Origin: Mycobacterium sp. IS-1496
GTDB taxonomy: Bacteria; Actinomycetota; Actinomycetes; Mycobacteriales; Mycobacteriaceae
DNA length: 64,000 nt
Direction of reading: 5' to 3'
Assembly (NCBI RefSeq): GCF_001499995.1
Contig: NZ_LQIU01000009.1
Span: forward strand, 44,611-108,610
Shown here: in pieces, positions 10,877 through 62,766 of the stretch
Position numbering within the stretch: the first letter of the stretch is position 1
How the letters are laid out: each line of letters begins with the position of its first letter
Translations under genes and position numbers: made by a program
The notes under the pieces: generated by a model
Databases searched by the model: none
What the model was told of the DNA's origin: nothing
The model's input: only the letters and a program-made list of their open reading frames with translations

Positions 10877-11431
10877 TCAGCCCTGCATGCGCGCGGCGCG
10901 CCTCGCAGGTATCGGGCATGCGTCCTCGGCTTCCGCGACGACCGGTGCGCGGTCGGCCGGGCGGTCCCCGTCGGCGTAGCGGGCACCGGTCACCGGGGAA
11001 TCCTCGGCCAACGCCGCGTTCTCCGCATCGGTGAACGCCCGGGCGCGGCTGAGGAACCGCATCCCCTCGGGCGCCTCGAGGCTGAACCCGCCGCCGCGGC
11101 CGGGGACCACGTCGATGACGAGCTGGGTGTGTTTCCAGGTGTCGAACTGGGGGCCGGAGATCCACACCGGCACACCGTCGGCCCCGACGTCGAGCACGGC
11201 GAGCAGCACGTCGCGGTCGCCGACGATGAACTCGCCGTCGGGGTAGCACATCGGCGACGACCCGTCGCAGCAGCCGCCGGACTGATGGAACATCAGCGCA
11301 CCGTGGCGACCCTGCAGTGTGGCGAGCAGGTCGGCGGCGGCGCGGGTGATCAGCGCCCTGGGCGGGCGAACGTGAGCTTGCGCGCGAGATCCGGGCGAAT
11401 CGTCGCGCACAGGCTCACGTTCGGCATCCAT
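10877..11431 (-). CDS. DUF779 protein, aldehyde dehydrogenase partner (Rv0459-like)
   Basis: A 184-residue DUF779 protein. The family core runs from about residue 25 to 130 with the cysteine-rich signature GGCCDGSSPMC and the segment GPQFDTWKHTQLVIDVV. DUF779 genes usually sit beside alcohol or aldehyde dehydrogenase genes; a metal-binding or accessory role is possible but unproven. The ATG at 11431 overlaps a TGA that ends the tandem repeat unit (TGATG). The C-terminal tail rich in Ala and Arg is variable in the family. Confidence 0.8.
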   Translation of the reverse strand: MDAEREPVRDDSPGSRAQAHVRPPRALITRAAADLLATLQGRHGALMFHQSGGCCDGSSPMCYPDGEFIVGDRDVLLAVLDVGADGVPVWISGPQFDTWKHTQLVIDVVPGRGGGFSLEAPEGMRFLSRARAFTDAENAALAEDSPVTGARYADGDRPADRAPVVAEAEDACPIPARRAARMQG

Positions 11432-11526
11432 CAGTGTTGTCGCTTCCTCGCGTCAGCGCTCGTCAGTGTTGTCGCTTCCTCGCGCAAGCGCTCGTCAGTG
11501 TTGTCGCTTCCTCGCGCAAGCGCTCG
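11431..11526 (-). repeat. Three tandem 32-bp units between ALDH and DUF779 genes
   Basis: Units at 11431-11462, 11463-11494 and 11495-11526 begin TCAGTGTTGTCGCTTCCTCG on the plus strand. The second and third are identical; the first differs at two places near its end (GTCAGCG for GCAAGCG). On the coding (minus) strand each unit runs from one TGA to the next and carries GCGAGGAAGCG, a ribosome-binding sequence. The array exactly fills the space between the ALDH stop codon and the DUF779 start codon. Confidence 0.9.
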
Positions 11527-13046
<1,520 letters not shown>

Positions 13047-55706: not shown

Positions 55707-58607
55707 ATGCTGGCCATCCTCTGTGCCCATGCGGTCGCGACCGCGTTGGCACCCCTCATGGTGGCCAGATGGGGACGGATCGCGTTCTACCCGTTGGCGG
55801 TCGTTCCGCTGGCCTCCCTGGTCTGGGTTGCGCTGAACTGGCCGGAGCCGGGCAGCGCGCAGACCGTGAACCTGGTCTGGCTGCCCGAGCTGTCGATGGA
55901 CATCACGCTGCGGTTCGACACGCTCGCCGCGATCATGAGCGTGCTCATCCTGGGTATCGGCGCGCTCGTGCTGTTCTACTGCGGCACGTATTTCCACCAT
56001 CGCGACGGGCACGTCGAGAAGCGTCTGCCCAGCTTCGCGGCCGAGATGGTGGCGTTCGCCGGGTCGATGTTCGGTCTCGTCATCAGCGACAACATGCTGA
56101 TCCTGTACGTCTTCTGGGAAACGACGACGGTGTTGTCGTTCCTGCTGGTCGGCCACTACGCCGAACGGGCGACGAGCCGCCGCGCCGCCACCCAGGCGTT
56201 GCTGGTCACCACGTTCGGCGGGCTGGCGATGCTGGTCGGCATCATCATCCTCGGCAACCTCGCCGGCACGTACCTGCTCTCCGAACTGGTCGCGTCACCG
56301 CCGTCGGGGGTGGCCGCCGCGGTCGGGGTGGCGCTCATCCTCGTTGGCGCCCTGTCGAAATCCGCGATCGTGCCGCTGCACTTCTGGCTGCCCGGGGCGA
56401 TGGCCGCCCCCACCCCCGTCAGCGCGTACCTGCACGCCGCGGCCATGGTGAAGGCCGGGGTGTTCCTGGTGGCGCGGATGACGCCCGGCTTCGCCGACTC
56501 CCCGGTGTGGCGGCCGATGATCATCACCCTCGGCCTGGCGACGATGCTGCTGGCCGGCTGGCGCGCGGTGCGCGAGTACGACCTCAAACTCATCCTGGCG
56601 TTCGGCACGGTCAGCCAGCTCGGGCTGATCACCGTCATGGTCGGCACCGGCGGGCGCGACATGATGCTGGCCGGGCTGGCGATGCTGGTCGCACACGCGA
56701 TGTTCAAGGCGTCGCTGTTCATGGTGGTCGGTGTCATCGACCACTCGACCGGCACGCGCGACATCCGTCGGCTGGCGTGGCTCGGCGACCGCAGCAACCC
56801 GCTGCTGTTCATCGCCGTCGGTGCGACGGCCAGCATGGCGGCGCTCCCGCCGTTCCTCGGCTTCGTCGCCAAGGAGGCCGACTTCGAGACCGTGCTGCAC
56901 AGCGCCGCACTGGGCCCGTTCGCCCCCTGGGTGCTCGCCGGCATCGTCTTCGGTTCGGTGTTCACCACCATCTACAGCCTGCGGTTCCTGTGGGGCGCGT
57001 TCAGCCGCAAAGGTCTACACGAGCCGAGCGTGCGCGTCCGCGAGATGCACCGTCCGTCAGCGGCGTTCCTGGCCGCGCCGGCGTTCCTCGCCGCCGCCGG
57101 CCTGGTCTCGGGTCTGTGGCCCGCCCCGCTGGACGCCGTGCTCGGCGAATACGCGCAGACCGTGCCCGGCGGCGAGGATTACCACCTGGCGTTGTGGCAC
57201 GGCCTGAACCTGCCGCTCCTGCTGTCGGCGCTGGTGATCGCGACCGGTGTCGCCGCGTTCTTCGAGCGGTCCAAGCTGCGGCGGGCCCGGGTGGCCTACC
57301 TTCCGCTCGGCAACGCCGACCACGTCTACGACTCGTTGATCCGCGGGCTCGACATGGTGTCGGTGCGGCTGACCGCGACCACCCAGCGCGGCTCCATCCC
57401 GGCCACCCAGTCGGTCATCCTCTGCACCCTGGTGGTCGTGCCCGCGGTGGCGCTGCTGCTCGGTGCGCGGGACCGGCCGGACTTCGCGCTGTGGGATTCG
57501 CCGTGGGTGGTCGTGGTCGGGCTGCTGATGCTCGCCGCCGCGGTGGGCGCCGCCGTGATGCGCAACCGCCTGGCCGCGGTCCTGCTGATCGGGGTCACCG
57601 GTTACGGCTGCGGTGCGATCTTCGCGCTGCACGGCGCGCCGGATCTGGCGCTCACCCAGTTCCTGGTCGAGACGCTGGTGCTGGTCATCTTCGTGCTGGT
57701 ACTGCGCACCCTGCCCGCGGAGGCCGAAAAGGCCCACATCAACCACAAGCGCCTGCCACGCGCGGTGCTGTCGCTGGCGGTCGGCGTGACGGTCACGTCG
57801 CTGGCGGTGTACGCGATGGCCGCCCGCACCGGGGCGGGCATCGCCGAACTGATCCCCGACGCGGCCTACTACCGCGGCCAGGGAGCCAACGCGGTCAACG
57901 TCCTGCTTGTCGACATCCGCGCCTGGGACACCATGGGCGAGATCTCGGTGCTGCTCGTCGCGGCCACCGGCGTGGCCTCGCTGGTGTTCCGCAACCGCCG
58001 TTTCGGGACCGCGCCGCGGGTGTCGGACGCCGGACAACCCGACATCGGACGCATCGGCACCTTCGCCAACAGCCCGGCCGTCGGCGACATCACCTGGCTG
58101 CGCGGCAGCGAACTGCGCGATCCGCGACACCGTTCGCTGGTGCTGGAGGTGGCGACGCGCGTCATCTTCCCGCTCATCATGGTGCTCTCGGCGTACTTCT
58201 TCTTCGCCGGCCACAACACGCCCGGCGGCGGGTTCGCAGGCGGCCTGACGGCGGGCCTGGCCCTGGTGCTGCGCTATCTCGCCGGCGGTCGTTACGAGTT
58301 GGGTGAGACGCTGCCGCTGGATGCGGGCAAGATCCTCGGCGTCGGGCTGGCGCTGTCCGCGGGCACGGCGGTGGCCTCGCTGTTCCTCGGCGCGCCCGCA
58401 TTGTCCTCGGCGGTCATCGAATTCGACCTGCCGGTCCTCGGCACCGTCAAGTTGGTGACCGCACTGTTCTTCGATTTGGGGGTGTATCTGATCGTCGTCG
58501 GTCTGGTTCTCGACGTACTGCGCAGCCTGGGCGCTCAGGTCGACGTGGAGATGTCCGCGCCGAATCCCGGTTCGGGCAGGTCGGCGGCGAAGGTGGGTGC
58601 GCGGTGA
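55707..58607 (+). CDS. mnhA: Na+/H+ antiporter subunit MnhA fused to MnhB (MrpAB)
   Basis: A 966-residue fused subunit of the Mrp antiporter, a multi-protein Na+(Li+)/H+ exchanger related to complex I. The first 650 residues are the NuoL-like proton-channel module (ETTTVLSFLLVGHYAERATS, KSAIVPLHFWLPGAMAAPTPVSAYLHAAAMVKAG region). Residues about 690-760 are the MrpA C-terminal part. From about 810 comes an MnhB domain (RVIFPLIMVLSAYFFFAGHN, then TPGGGFAGGL). No separate mnhB exists in the operon. Its stop overlaps the GTG of mnhC. Confidence 0.95.
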   Translation: MLAILCAHAVATALAPLMVARWGRIAFYPLAVVPLASLVWVALNWPEPGSAQTVNLVWLPELSMDITLRFDTLAAIMSVLILGIGALVLFYCGTYFHHRDGHVEKRLPSFAAEMVAFAGSMFGLVISDNMLILYVFWETTTVLSFLLVGHYAERATSRRAATQALLVTTFGGLAMLVGIIILGNLAGTYLLSELVASPPSGVAAAVGVALILVGALSKSAIVPLHFWLPGAMAAPTPVSAYLHAAAMVKAGVFLVARMTPGFADSPVWRPMIITLGLATMLLAGWRAVREYDLKLILAFGTVSQLGLITVMVGTGGRDMMLAGLAMLVAHAMFKASLFMVVGVIDHSTGTRDIRRLAWLGDRSNPLLFIAVGATASMAALPPFLGFVAKEADFETVLHSAALGPFAPWVLAGIVFGSVFTTIYSLRFLWGAFSRKGLHEPSVRVREMHRPSAAFLAAPAFLAAAGLVSGLWPAPLDAVLGEYAQTVPGGEDYHLALWHGLNLPLLLSALVIATGVAAFFERSKLRRARVAYLPLGNADHVYDSLIRGLDMVSVRLTATTQRGSIPATQSVILCTLVVVPAVALLLGARDRPDFALWDSPWVVVVGLLMLAAAVGAAVMRNRLAAVLLIGVTGYGCGAIFALHGAPDLALTQFLVETLVLVIFVLVLRTLPAEAEKAHINHKRLPRAVLSLAVGVTVTSLAVYAMAARTGAGIAELIPDAAYYRGQGANAVNVLLVDIRAWDTMGEISVLLVAATGVASLVFRNRRFGTAPRVSDAGQPDIGRIGTFANSPAVGDITWLRGSELRDPRHRSLVLEVATRVIFPLIMVLSAYFFFAGHNTPGGGFAGGLTAGLALVLRYLAGGRYELGETLPLDAGKILGVGLALSAGTAVASLFLGAPALSSAVIEFDLPVLGTVKLVTALFFDLGVYLIVVGLVLDVLRSLGAQVDVEMSAPNPGSGRSAAKVGAR

Positions 58608-59077
58608 CCACCTACCTCGTTCCCCTGATCCTGATCGGCGGTCTCACCAGCGTGGGCGTCTACCTGCTGCTCGAGCGCAATCTGACCCGAATGTTGTTGG
58701 GGCTGTTGCTGATCGGCAATGCGATCAATCTGCTCGTCCTCACGGTGGCCGGGCCGTCCGGCAATCCGCCGGTCCGCGGACGCACCAGCGCGGGCGAGAC
58801 GTCCACCGCTGATCCGTTGGCGCAGGGCATGATCCTCACCGCGATCGTGATCAGCATGGGCATCGCGGCGTTCGTGCTGGCATTGACCTACCGGTCCTAC
58901 CGACTGACCACCGCCGAAGAGGTCGGCAACGACCCCGAGGACACCCGCGTCTCCGAGATGGCCGCCAAGGAGGCCGCCGCCCTCGACGAGGACCGGCCAC
59001 CGGAGCCGGATCTGGCGATCGACACCGACCTGCCCGACGAGCTCGACGCGCTCCCGGGTCGGGAGGGTTCCCGGTGA
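58604..59077 (+). CDS. mnhC: Na+/H+ antiporter subunit MnhC
   Basis: A 157-residue NuoK-like subunit with three transmembrane segments (LVPLILIGGLTSVGVYLLLE, then LTRMLLGLLLIGNAINLLVL and TAIVISMGIAAFVLAL) and an acidic cytosolic tail of about 50 residues. The GTG overlaps the mnhA stop. Its own stop overlaps the start of a 12-codon mini-ORF that leads into mnhD. Confidence 0.93.
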   Translation: MTTYLVPLILIGGLTSVGVYLLLERNLTRMLLGLLLIGNAINLLVLTVAGPSGNPPVRGRTSAGETSTADPLAQGMILTAIVISMGIAAFVLALTYRSYRLTTAEEVGNDPEDTRVSEMAAKEAAALDEDRPPEPDLAIDTDLPDELDALPGREGSR

Positions 59078-59112
59078 CCGCGCAGCGAGAAGCGAAGGCG
59101 GATCGCGCATGA
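59074..59112 (+). repeat. MIRU-like linker mini-ORF between mnhC and mnhD
   Basis: GTG at 59074 opens a 12-codon frame (M-T-A-Q-REAKADRA) that ends in TGA 59110-59112. Its start overlaps the mnhC stop (GTGA) and its stop overlaps the mnhD start (ATGA). The same peptide frame occurs three times between mnhE and mnhF. The GAAGCGAAGG segment can act as the ribosome-binding site of mnhD. Confidence 0.85.
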
Positions 59113-60716
59113 CGTTGGCCACGGTGCTCACACCGCTGCCCGTACTCATCCCGACCATCGCCGCCGCGCTGACGCTGTTCGCGGGCCGTCGCCCGGTGCT
59201 GCAACGGGTGCTCGCCCAGCTGGCGCTCGTCGCGGTCGTCGCGGTCTGCGCGGTGCTGGTCTACCTCACCGACCGTGACGGCACGTTGGCGGTGCACGTG
59301 GGCGGGTGGGGCCAGAGCGTCCCCGGCATGGGGCCGCTCGGCATCACCCTGGTCGTGGACCGGCTGTCGGCGCTGATGCTGATGGTGTCGTCCATCGTGC
59401 TGTTGGCGGTGGTCGCCTACGCCATCGGGCAGGGCATCCGCGACGGCGACGGCCGTCAGCCGGTGTCGATCTTCCTGCCCACCTACCTGGTGCTGTCGGC
59501 CGGTGTGTGCACCGCCTTCCTGGCCGGTGACCTGTTCAACCTGTACGTCGGGTTCGAGGTGTTGCTGTCCGCGAGCTTCGTGCTGCTCACCATCGGCGCG
59601 AGCGCCGAGCGGGTGCGGGCGGGCATCTCGTACGTGATGGTGTCGATGGTGTCGTCGCTGATCTTCCTGCTCGGCATCGGCCTCGTGTACGCGGCCACCG
59701 GCACGCTCAACATGGCCGAACTGGCCGTGCGTCTCGACGACGTCTCCGAGGGCACGCGGATGGCGCTGTTCGCGGTGCTGCTGGTGGCGTTCGGCATCAA
59801 GGCGGCGGTGTTCCCGCTCTCGACGTGGTTGCCCGACTCCTACCCGACCGCACCGGCGCCGGTCACCGCGGTGTTCGCCGGCCTGCTGACGAAAGTCGGT
59901 GTTTACGCGATCATCCGCGCGCATTCGCTGCTGTTCCCCGGCGGCGGGCTGGACCAGGTGCTGCTCTGGGCGGCGCTGCTGACCATGGTGGTCGGCATCC
60001 TCGGCGCCATCGCGCAGAGCGACATCAAACGACTGTTGTCGTTCACGCTCGTCAGCCACATCGGGTACATGGTCTTCGGTATCGCGCTGTCCAACGACCT
60101 CGGCATGGCCGGCGCCATCTACTACGTCGCGCACCACATCGTCGTGCAGACCACCCTGTTCCTCGTGGTGGGCCTGATCGAGCGCCAGGCCGGGGCGTCG
60201 ACGATGACGCGCCTGGGCGGGCTGGCCGCCGCCAGCCCGCTACTCGCCTTCGTCTTCGTCGTGCCCGCGCTGAATCTCGGTGGCATACCGCCGTTCTCGG
60301 GCTTCATCGGCAAGGTGGCGCTGCTCGAGGCGGGCGCGTCCAACGGCACACCGCTGGCCTGGGCGCTGGTGGCCGGCGGTGTGGTGACGAGCCTGCTGAC
60401 CCTCTACGTGGTGGCCCGGGTGTGGACGAAGGCCTTCTGGCGGTCGCGTGACGACGCACCGGAGGGGCACCTGTCCTCGACCGCCCCGGCGGCGCTGCTG
60501 GACGACACCGCGGAATCGGAGGACATTCAGTTCGTGGACCGCGATCACGTCGGCCGCATGCCCGTCGGCATGCTGGCGCCGACGGGTGCGTTGATCGCGG
60601 TCGGTCTGGCGCTGACCGTGGCGGCGGGGCCGATCTTCGCCTACAGCGGCCGAGCGGCCGACGAGGTGATCAACCGCGATCACTACATCACCGCGGTGGT
60701 GGGTGAGCGGCCATGA
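59109..60716 (+). CDS. mnhD: Na+/H+ antiporter subunit MnhD
   Basis: A 535-residue NuoN/NuoM-like antiporter subunit with about 13-14 transmembrane segments. The family core includes GFEVLLSASFVLLTIG with its Glu, IKAAVFPLSTWLPDSYPTAP with the conserved Lys, and SDIKRLLSFTLVSHIGYMVF. The ATG overlaps the stop of the linker mini-ORF, and its stop overlaps the mnhE start (ATGA). Confidence 0.95.
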   Translation: MTLATVLTPLPVLIPTIAAALTLFAGRRPVLQRVLAQLALVAVVAVCAVLVYLTDRDGTLAVHVGGWGQSVPGMGPLGITLVVDRLSALMLMVSSIVLLAVVAYAIGQGIRDGDGRQPVSIFLPTYLVLSAGVCTAFLAGDLFNLYVGFEVLLSASFVLLTIGASAERVRAGISYVMVSMVSSLIFLLGIGLVYAATGTLNMAELAVRLDDVSEGTRMALFAVLLVAFGIKAAVFPLSTWLPDSYPTAPAPVTAVFAGLLTKVGVYAIIRAHSLLFPGGGLDQVLLWAALLTMVVGILGAIAQSDIKRLLSFTLVSHIGYMVFGIALSNDLGMAGAIYYVAHHIVVQTTLFLVVGLIERQAGASTMTRLGGLAAASPLLAFVFVVPALNLGGIPPFSGFIGKVALLEAGASNGTPLAWALVAGGVVTSLLTLYVVARVWTKAFWRSRDDAPEGHLSSTAPAALLDDTAESEDIQFVDRDHVGRMPVGMLAPTGALIAVGLALTVAAGPIFAYSGRAADEVINRDHYITAVVGERP

Positions 60717-61282
60717 AGGTTCTCGAGGGTACGCGGTGGTCGCCACGTCGGCTGGCGCTGCGGGCATGGGTGCTGTGCTGGCTGACACTGGTGTGGATCC
60801 TGTTGTGGGGCACGCTGTCTGCGGCCAACATCGTCAGCGGCCTGGCCATCGCGCTGATGATCACGCTGCTGCTGCCCCTGCCGCCGGTGCCTGTGGAGGG
60901 CCGGGTCCACCTGCTGTCGCTGCTGCGCCTGATCGCCACCGTGGCGTACTACCTGGTGGTGTCCTCGGTGCAGGTGGCGTGGCTGGCGGTCAAACCGGGC
61001 CCGCCGCCGCTGACCGCGGTGCTGCGGGCGCATTTCGCGGTGAAGTCGGACCTGGTGCTCGCGCTCGCGGTGAACATCGTGAATCTGACGCCGGGCACCA
61101 TCGCGCTGGAGATCGACCAGACCAGGCGCGTGGTCTACGTCCATGTCATCGACGTCGGCTCCGACCGCGCACTGAGTCGCTTCTACCGCCAGATCGGACA
61201 GTTCGAGCGGTTGCTGATCGCCGCGTTCGAACGGGAATCGGACTGGCGGCCATCGACGGAGAGGGAGGCCGATCCCGAATGA
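60713..61282 (+). CDS. mnhE: Na+/H+ antiporter subunit MnhE
   Basis: A 189-residue subunit with three hydrophobic segments in its first 100 residues and a cytosolic C-terminal domain containing NIVNLTPGTIALEI and VYVHVIDVGSD, both typical of MnhE. The stop TGA (61280-61282) overlaps the first repeat unit (ATGA). Confidence 0.93.
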   Translation: MKVLEGTRWSPRRLALRAWVLCWLTLVWILLWGTLSAANIVSGLAIALMITLLLPLPPVPVEGRVHLLSLLRLIATVAYYLVVSSVQVAWLAVKPGPPPLTAVLRAHFAVKSDLVLALAVNIVNLTPGTIALEIDQTRRVVYVHVIDVGSDRALSRFYRQIGQFERLLIAAFERESDWRPSTEREADPE

Positions 61283-61387
61283 ACGCCGAGCGAGAAGCGA
61301 AGGCGGATCGAGCATGAACGCCGAGCGAGAAGCGAAGGCGGATCGAGCATGAACGCCGAGCGAGAAGCGAAGGCGGATCGCGCATGA
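61279..61387 (+). repeat. Three tandem 35-bp MIRU-like units between mnhE and mnhF
   Basis: Units at 61279-61313, 61314-61348 and 61349-61383; the first two are identical and the third differs in one base (CGC for AGC at the end). Each opens with ATGA and encodes MNAEREAKADRA followed by a TGA that overlaps the ATG of the next unit. The last TGA (61385-61387) overlaps the mnhF ATG. The chain therefore gives four successive ATGA couplings from mnhE to mnhF. Confidence 0.92.
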
Positions 61388-61671
61388 ACTGGGTGTGGAT
61401 CATCGCGGGGGTGATGCTCAGCGCCGCCGCGGCCGCGACGATGTTCCGGCTGCTGGCCGGACCGAGCACGCTGGACCGGCTGGTCGCGCTGGACACGCTC
61501 GTCGCAGTCACCATGTGCGCGATCGGCACGTGGGCCGCGTTCAGCCTCAACACCACCGTGACCTACAGCCTGACCGCTCTGGCTCTGATCAGTTTCGTCG
61601 GGTCGGTCAGCGTGGCGCGCTTCCGCGTACCTGATGTCCGTAGGCCCGACAGGTCACGGAGGACATCGTGA
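61384..61671 (+). CDS. mnhF: Na+/H+ antiporter subunit MnhF
   Basis: A 95-residue subunit with three transmembrane segments; FRLLAGPSTLDRLVALDTLV is the MnhF signature. ATG 61384 overlaps the last linker stop and the gene overlaps mnhG by four bases (GTGA). Confidence 0.93.
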   Translation: MNWVWIIAGVMLSAAAAATMFRLLAGPSTLDRLVALDTLVAVTMCAIGTWAAFSLNTTVTYSLTALALISFVGSVSVARFRVPDVRRPDRSRRTS

Positions 61672-62030
61672 GCGCCTTCGACATCGTCGCCAGCGTCCTG
61701 GTGCTGGGCGGATCGACGCTGGCTCTGACCGCCGCGATCGGCGTCGTCCGGTTCCCGGACACGCTCTCGCGGATGCACGCCGCGACCAAGCCGCAGGTGC
61801 TCGGTCTGCTCCTCGTGCTGGCGGGTGCGGCCATCCGGCTGCGCGGGAACGTCGACGTCGGGATGCTCATTCTGACCGGACTTTTCACGGTCATCACCGC
61901 GCCGGTGATCGCCAATCGCGTGGGCCAACTCGCCTACCACGAGCAGAACATCCGTGACGACCTGTTGACCAGGGACGAGATGCTTGAAGTCGCCGCGGAA
62001 AGGGAACACCGCGGCCATGACGACTCCTGA
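61668..62030 (+). CDS. mnhG: Na+/H+ antiporter subunit MnhG
   Basis: A 120-residue subunit with three transmembrane segments; RFPDTLSRMHAATKPQVLGL is the MnhG signature. GTG start. It completes the set A(B)-C-D-E-F-G. Its last 14 bases overlap the methyltransferase start. Confidence 0.93.
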   Translation: MSAFDIVASVLVLGGSTLALTAAIGVVRFPDTLSRMHAATKPQVLGLLLVLAGAAIRLRGNVDVGMLILTGLFTVITAPVIANRVGQLAYHEQNIRDDLLTRDEMLEVAAEREHRGHDDS

Positions 62031-62766
62031 CGGCATCGTGAACGCACTGGCCGTCGCGCTGGCCAGACAAAGTGAGTCGCACGCCGACTGTCCGTTGTTC
62101 GACGACCCGTACGCGCAGGTGTTCATCGACGCCGCGTTGAACCGGGGGTGTCAGCTCCCCAGCGACGAGACGGCCGAACGGATAAACGGCATCGCCAACT
62201 ACGCGTCGTCGCGCACCAAGTGGTTCGACGAGTTCTTCATCGCCGCAGGCGCGCACGGGCTCGAGCAGATGGTGATCGTCGCCGCCGGACTCGACGCACG
62301 AGCGTGGCGACTGCCCTGGGTCGACGGCACCGCGGTCTACGAGATCGACCACCCCGGGGTGTTGAAGTTCAAGAACGAGGCCCTGCGTGAACACGGCGAC
62401 AGTCCTTCGGTGTCCCGCTACGTTCCGGTACCTGCTGATCTGTTCGACGAGTGGACGAACACGTTGATCGAGGCCGGATTCGACGCTTCGGAACCGACGG
62501 CGTGGGCGGTCGAGGGACTACTTCCGTACATGGCGGACGGCCCACACCTGTTGTTCGACCGCATCCACGAGATGAGCCCACCCGGGAGCCGGTTGGCCGT
62601 CGAGGCGGTCGGGCCGGGCGTGGCCGACTGGTTGACCGCACGGGGCTGGCAGGTCACGACGATCGGCGCGCAGGAACTGATGACGCGGTACGGACGGTGC
62701 GGCGACCACGGCGACACCGACACGGCCAAGGACACGGTATTCGTCGACGCCAGACGTAATCGCTGA
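62017..62766 (+). CDS. SAM-dependent methyltransferase, shortened member of mycobacterial TIGR00027 family
   Basis: A 249-residue class I methyltransferase of the family with many paralogues in mycobacteria. It keeps the N-terminal RTKWFDEF, the SAM motif VIVAAGLDARAWRLPW, YEIDHPGVLKFK and AVEGLLPYM. Family members are usually about 300 residues; here the stretch between RLAVEAV and DWLTARGWQV is about 35-45 residues shorter. It overlaps mnhG by 14 bases in another frame, suggesting cotranscription. Substrate unknown. Confidence 0.82.
   Translation: MTTPDGIVNALAVALARQSESHADCPLFDDPYAQVFIDAALNRGCQLPSDETAERINGIANYASSRTKWFDEFFIAAGAHGLEQMVIVAAGLDARAWRLPWVDGTAVYEIDHPGVLKFKNEALREHGDSPSVSRYVPVPADLFDEWTNTLIEAGFDASEPTAWAVEGLLPYMADGPHLLFDRIHEMSPPGSRLAVEAVGPGVADWLTARGWQVTTIGAQELMTRYGRCGDHGDTDTAKDTVFVDARRNR

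Follow-up and report, generated by a model that had tools for sequence, protein, structure and literature searches.

The repeat array and its neighbours

The window, by which we mean the whole analysed stretch of 64,000 nucleotides from Mycobacterium sp. IS-1496, carries an mrp/mnh operon in which three tandem 35 bp units (61279–61383) lie between mnhE and mnhF. The gene mnhE (60713–61282, plus strand) encodes a Na+/H+ antiporter subunit and matches PF01899 (MNHE), and mnhF (61384–61671, plus strand) matches PF04066 (MrpF_PhaF). TRF reports the array at 61279–61389 with a period of 35, 3.2 copies and 98% matches. The array unit reads ATG AAC GCC GAG CGA GAA GCG AAG GCG GAT CGA/CGC GCA TGA, and each unit is an ATG…TGA open reading frame (ORF) that encodes MNAEREAKADRA and whose TGA falls inside the following ATGA. 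All three units are on the plus strand. The first (61279–61313; mini-ORF 61279–61317) holds the mnhE stop codon (61280–61282) within its ATGA, the second (61314–61348; mini-ORF 61314–61352) is identical to it, and the third (61349–61383; mini-ORF 61349–61387) departs from both by a single base, CGAGC being changed to CGCGC; its TGA overlaps the ATG of mnhF, and the start codon of this gene is supplied by the repeat. Four overlaps, with ATGA at 61279, 61314, 61349 and 61384, lead from mnhE through to mnhF. The TRF result and the unit coordinates confirm the sequence-only reading of this DNA, which had described three 35 bp tandem units joined by start/stop overlaps at four ATGA motifs.

A single further unit (59074–59108, plus strand) occupies the mnhC/mnhD junction of the same operon. 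Its mini-ORF (59074–59112) is initiated by GTG and encodes VTAQREAKADRA; the stop codon of mnhC (58604–59077, plus strand; PF00420) lies within the GTGA of the unit, and mnhD (59109–60716, plus strand; PF00361) begins with the ATG at 59109. The source genome as a whole gives six matches to the core of the unit at four loci, the remaining single copies standing before a gene for an XPB-type helicase and before one for a LuxR-type response regulator. Contig 24 of this genome (locus L274, 4800–7200) also holds a 34 bp copy with a one-base deletion. This copy has ATGAGTGAC on either flank and lies outside any start/stop overlap, the neighbour upstream of the following gene ending about 40 nt away.

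Distribution in the genus

The array between mnhE and mnhF belongs to a dispersed family. Among 297 genomes of the genus, 104 contain matches to a pattern restricted to the core of the unit with one mismatch allowed, 335 in all, and the reversed pattern gave none in the same set. The unit stands at many further junctions in related genomes, where the sequence-only reading had proposed to look for it, and the absence elsewhere that would have spoken against that reading did not occur. When a TGA was demanded at a distance of exactly 4 nt after the core, 301 matches in 100 genomes remained; among the 34 without TGA at that spot, some (L130, L150 and L276) are shifted or decayed starts, at least one (L125) lies away from any start codon, and in another (L284) the start codon has been lost. 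A 40-position profile that includes the ATGA matched in 144 of the 297 genomes and is biased to start codons. The same bias holds for sites found with our first-look model, which also contained the ATGA and consequently favours start codons; the core-only searches are free of it, and in a core-only sample 29 of 31 site groups run directly into ATGA or GTGA. Named carriers include Mycobacterium sp. 1274761.0, M. frederiksbergense (one unit, at mnhE/mnhF) and M. agri (two loci). At the level of the order, where the 200 genomes searched include members of the genus of the window, 12 matched: 11 belong to this genus, and the remaining match, a weak one, lies at a contig end where no unit is readable. 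No paper on the 35 bp repeat was found in the open-access literature searched.

Anatomy of the insertion sites

After stretches with N or short flanks had been dropped 127 sites were available, and removal of an identical downstream flank left 126. A single copy is present at 88 of these; the other 38 carry two (19 sites), three (12), four (5), five (1) or six (1). Of the 67 steps from one unit to the next, 62 measure 35, three measure 32, and one each measures 36 and 37. The 3′ DTGA is found at a fixed offset in 124 of the 126 sites. At 93 of 122 sites a reading frame of 150 codons or more ends at the TGA within the upstream DTGA, compared with 196 of 2330 control TGAs, and the usual target, as judged from these frames, is the start/stop overlap of co-directional genes. 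The gene behind the element starts with ATG at 122 and with GTG at two of 124 sites; two of these 124 genes (L091 and L093) are open for only seven codons from that ATG. The mini-ORF in front starts with ATG at 85, GTG at 39 and TTG at one of 125 sites, and the 60 mnhF starts that are free of the element comprise 39 ATG, 18 GTG and three others. The original start codon seems to be left on the upstream side, with the element contributing a new A. Since the element ends in A, the gene behind it has an ATG start even at sites whose mini-ORF is initiated by GTG.

TGA is present on both flanks, and in 76 single-copy sites the base that follows it matches across the flanks in 79%, compared with 41% after shuffling; bases 6 and 7 match more weakly. 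In 26 copies with the consensus core the base after TGA matches in 81% versus 36% shuffled, with none of the later bases significant, and with one site taken from each of 43 gene families it matches in 71% versus 36%. These flanks suggest a target duplication of 4 bp, TGAN, such as a 4 bp staggered insertion would leave. A 9 bp duplication was considered and rejected in favour of 4 bp, because the consensus-core copies are significant only at the base after TGA. Bases 6–9 of the unit vary even among the consensus-core copies. A plain 4 bp duplication leaves one feature unexplained, namely flank matches of at least eight bases behind the start base, which occur in seven of the 76 single-copy sites against 0.5 expected.

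Presence and copy number at mnhE/mnhF

A search for MnhF in 118 genomes of the genus matched 72, of which 70 junctions were read and two were left out. Ten of the 70 are filled, with one to six copies, and the remaining 60 are plain junctions. A junction was counted as filled when DTGA stood on both sides and a unit was visible, which excludes L161, L166 and L215. On a rapidly built tree of mnhE plus mnhF, in which some forks are unresolved and branches are long, the filled junctions require nine changes, at least seven of them forced by well supported branches, and their labels are as scattered as shuffled ones (200 of 500 shuffles are equally low). Where the window has three units, a single one is present in a relative whose locus shows 84% identity over 2.9 kb. 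One genome per species was sampled, and all differences in presence and copy number are accordingly differences between species; within this scope copy number is variable, from one to six, as had been surmised from the array, and is not fixed across relatives.

Variation of this kind might indicate that copy number acts as a regulatory dial, with reinitiation lowering or an internal Shine–Dalgarno (SD) sequence raising mnhF relative to mnhE and so setting the subunit stoichiometry of the antiporter, a possibility that the sequence-only reading also raised. The range of copies at this junction agrees with such a function, as does a report (PMC2734929) that longer MIRU-VNTR arrays before fpg1 of M. 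tuberculosis went with higher mRNA. However, 60 of the 70 mnhE/mnhF junctions do without the unit, and the unit precedes 43 unrelated gene families. We therefore consider a dial improbable and favour an element that likely spreads among start codons.

Two other kinds of sequence were seen at this junction. At L175 and L211 inserts of about 60 and 90 bp, in which the 35 bp unit has no match, occupy the same ATGA, as if the mnhF start attracted several kinds of insert. At L181, L191 and L023 mnhE itself ends in GAGGCGGATCGCGC directly before the ATGA, resembling the 3′ end of the element; these ends may be old units fused into mnhE, or may represent the type of sequence from which the element arose.

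Comparison with MIRUs and other known systems

A standard typing scheme for tuberculosis is built on mycobacterial interspersed repetitive units (MIRUs). Supply and co-workers, writing in 1997, reportedly placed them at DTGA sites at gene starts or start/stop overlaps. In a 2025 review MIRUs are described as mobile; they insert at start codons and contain an internal ORF coupled at −4 nt to the gene behind (PMC12548453), so that the kind of element described here is already known. The 35 bp element is like them in consisting of short interspersed units at gene junctions, in tandem at some loci, in having an internal ORF that overlaps the neighbouring ORFs at −4 nt, as that review words it for MIRUs, and in combining a DTGA target at gene starts with duplication of the base after TGA. 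It is unlike them in its unit of 35 (or 32) bp, compared with the 46–101 bp given for MIRUs in PMC3914561, in the gene behind it, which nearly always starts with ATG while both ATG and GTG occur behind MIRUs, in the genomes that carry it, which are largely different ones, and in sequence. The supposition that the design is MIRU-like, with mini-ORFs overlapping starts and stops at gene junctions, is hence supported, and the accompanying remarks that the unit is shorter than a MIRU and different in sequence hold as well.

A presumed MIRU fragment, searched with two mismatches allowed, was widespread in the genus, occurring in 143 of the 297 genomes, and absent from the genome of the window; this contrasts with PMC4213456, which restricts the senX3–regX3 MIRUs to M. 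leprae and members of the M. tuberculosis complex. At the MIRU loci (L225–L254) 25 of 32 sites are flanked by DTGA at either end, with a match at the next base in 88% versus 30%. One of them (L240) is an array upstream of a gene whose product resembles RegX3 at its beginning.

The common target, the duplicated base after TGA, the internal ORF and the tandem arrays could mean that the 35 bp units belong by sequence to the MIRUs and have only been shortened. Six of 19 MIRU-bearing gene families, moreover, carry the 35 bp unit in other species, one of the six through paralogues (response regulators matched by both families are paralogues and were not counted as the same site). Against this, local alignment of the unit with MIRU is equalled in score by 16% and 54% of dinucleotide-shuffled MIRUs for two core types, and the two repeats seldom share a genome: the MIRU fragment is present in 18 of 104 unit-bearing genomes versus 125 of 193 unit-free ones (odds ratio 0.11, uncorrected for kinship). 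A shortened MIRU is on these grounds slightly less probable still than a dial, and the best reading is a new, shorter MIRU-like family with no detectable MIRU homology.

On the minus strand of the window, at 11431–11530, three tandem 32 bp units (TGACGAGCGCTTGCGCGAGGAAGCGACAACAC) lie between the stop codon of the upstream gene, which presumably encodes an aldehyde dehydrogenase, and a TGATG at which the following gene overlaps. This repeat was found in ten of the 297 genomes at several different junctions, one copy occurring in a relative (L264), and may represent a third family that behaves alike. Homology between it and the 35 bp unit was likewise rejected, the alignment being no better than with shuffles. 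A tentative grouping, less likely to be right than wrong, would unite the families of 35 bp, 53 bp and perhaps 32 bp, although the first two show no detectable homology, as a class of start-codon-homing micro-elements that share the DTGA target, the TGAN duplication, some gene starts and a single host machinery. This machinery would bring them to junctions of translational coupling, where they would rewrite the start codon of the following gene and place a ribosome relay ahead of it.

Two further systems offer partial parallels. The RU-1, RU-2 and RU-3 sequences of enterobacteria, which the abstract of PMC2759123 likens to MITEs, are small, mobile intergenic sequences able to carry open reading frames; the comparison extends to that description, and at 103–168 bp they are far longer than the 35 bp unit. 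Translational coupling by stop/start overlap shares with the repeat the −4 nt ATGA between co-directional ORFs, as outlined in PMC12548453, but joins two host genes only, while the 35 bp repeat multiplies the overlap as a dispersed insert.

The mini-ORF as a relay

The mini-ORF is intact from start to stop in 169 of 171 units of 35 bp. Of the single copies, 80 of 85 are in frame, which gives a 4 nt overlap between the TGA of the mini-ORF and the ATG that follows. An SD-like stretch precedes the ATG of the gene behind the element. With an assumed anti-SD string, the mean pairing energy, which is −3.3 for random positions, reaches −6.9 ahead of the gene start within the element and −8.2 ahead of the mini-ORF. 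Substitutions are concentrated at codon positions 1 and 2, the third being nearly invariant, and L276 has a mini-ORF that uses a different frame of this core and so specifies a different peptide, with the relay length of 35 nt kept. Because the substitutions do not spare the amino acids, the relay rather than the 12-residue peptide seems to be what persists. That the peptide itself is conserved, for instance as a small regulator of which the repeats are gene copies, would fit the intact frames, but this pattern of variation and L276 speak against it, and we regard it as highly improbable. A structured RNA was also rejected: the fold of one unit is weak (z = −1.76), and a search of 58500–62100 with Rfam covariance models returned one sub-threshold match (E = 0.93), away from the units, and no family at the units.

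Discussion

The reading we prefer, with a probability of roughly 0.7, is that the 35 bp repeat, which recurs at start codons throughout the genus, spreads as a tiny non-autonomous element into DTGA overlaps and relays ribosomes through its 12-codon ORF to mnhF. Placement at start codons and variable copy number are established by the genome comparison; present-day mobility and translational coupling are likely. The element would insert into a DTGA start/stop overlap with a 4 bp stagger, whereby TGAN would be duplicated, and further copies would most likely arise by local tandem duplication. Translation of every copy as a mini-ORF of 12 codons, followed by termination–reinitiation at the ATGA overlaps, would pass ribosomes on to mnhF. 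Since the former ribosome-binding site of mnhF would now drive the first mini-ORF, insertion is proposed to change the output of mnhF little, and gene starts may tolerate the element for the reason that the output of the gene behind it would change little. The copy at mnhC/mnhD, the signs of insertion with target duplication and the variation that does not spare the peptide go beyond the sequence-only reading.

A second family, without detectable homology to MIRUs and with a MIRU-like target and a duplication of TGA plus one base indicates that this habit is no quirk of one sequence, and two families that share a target offer a route, by genome comparison, to a shared mobilizing mechanism. The natural series of zero to six ATGA relays before the same gene could be used to measure reinitiation in mycobacteria. 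The 35 bp element, which is likely to be mobile, would stay almost harmless by handing ribosomes on to the gene behind its landing site.
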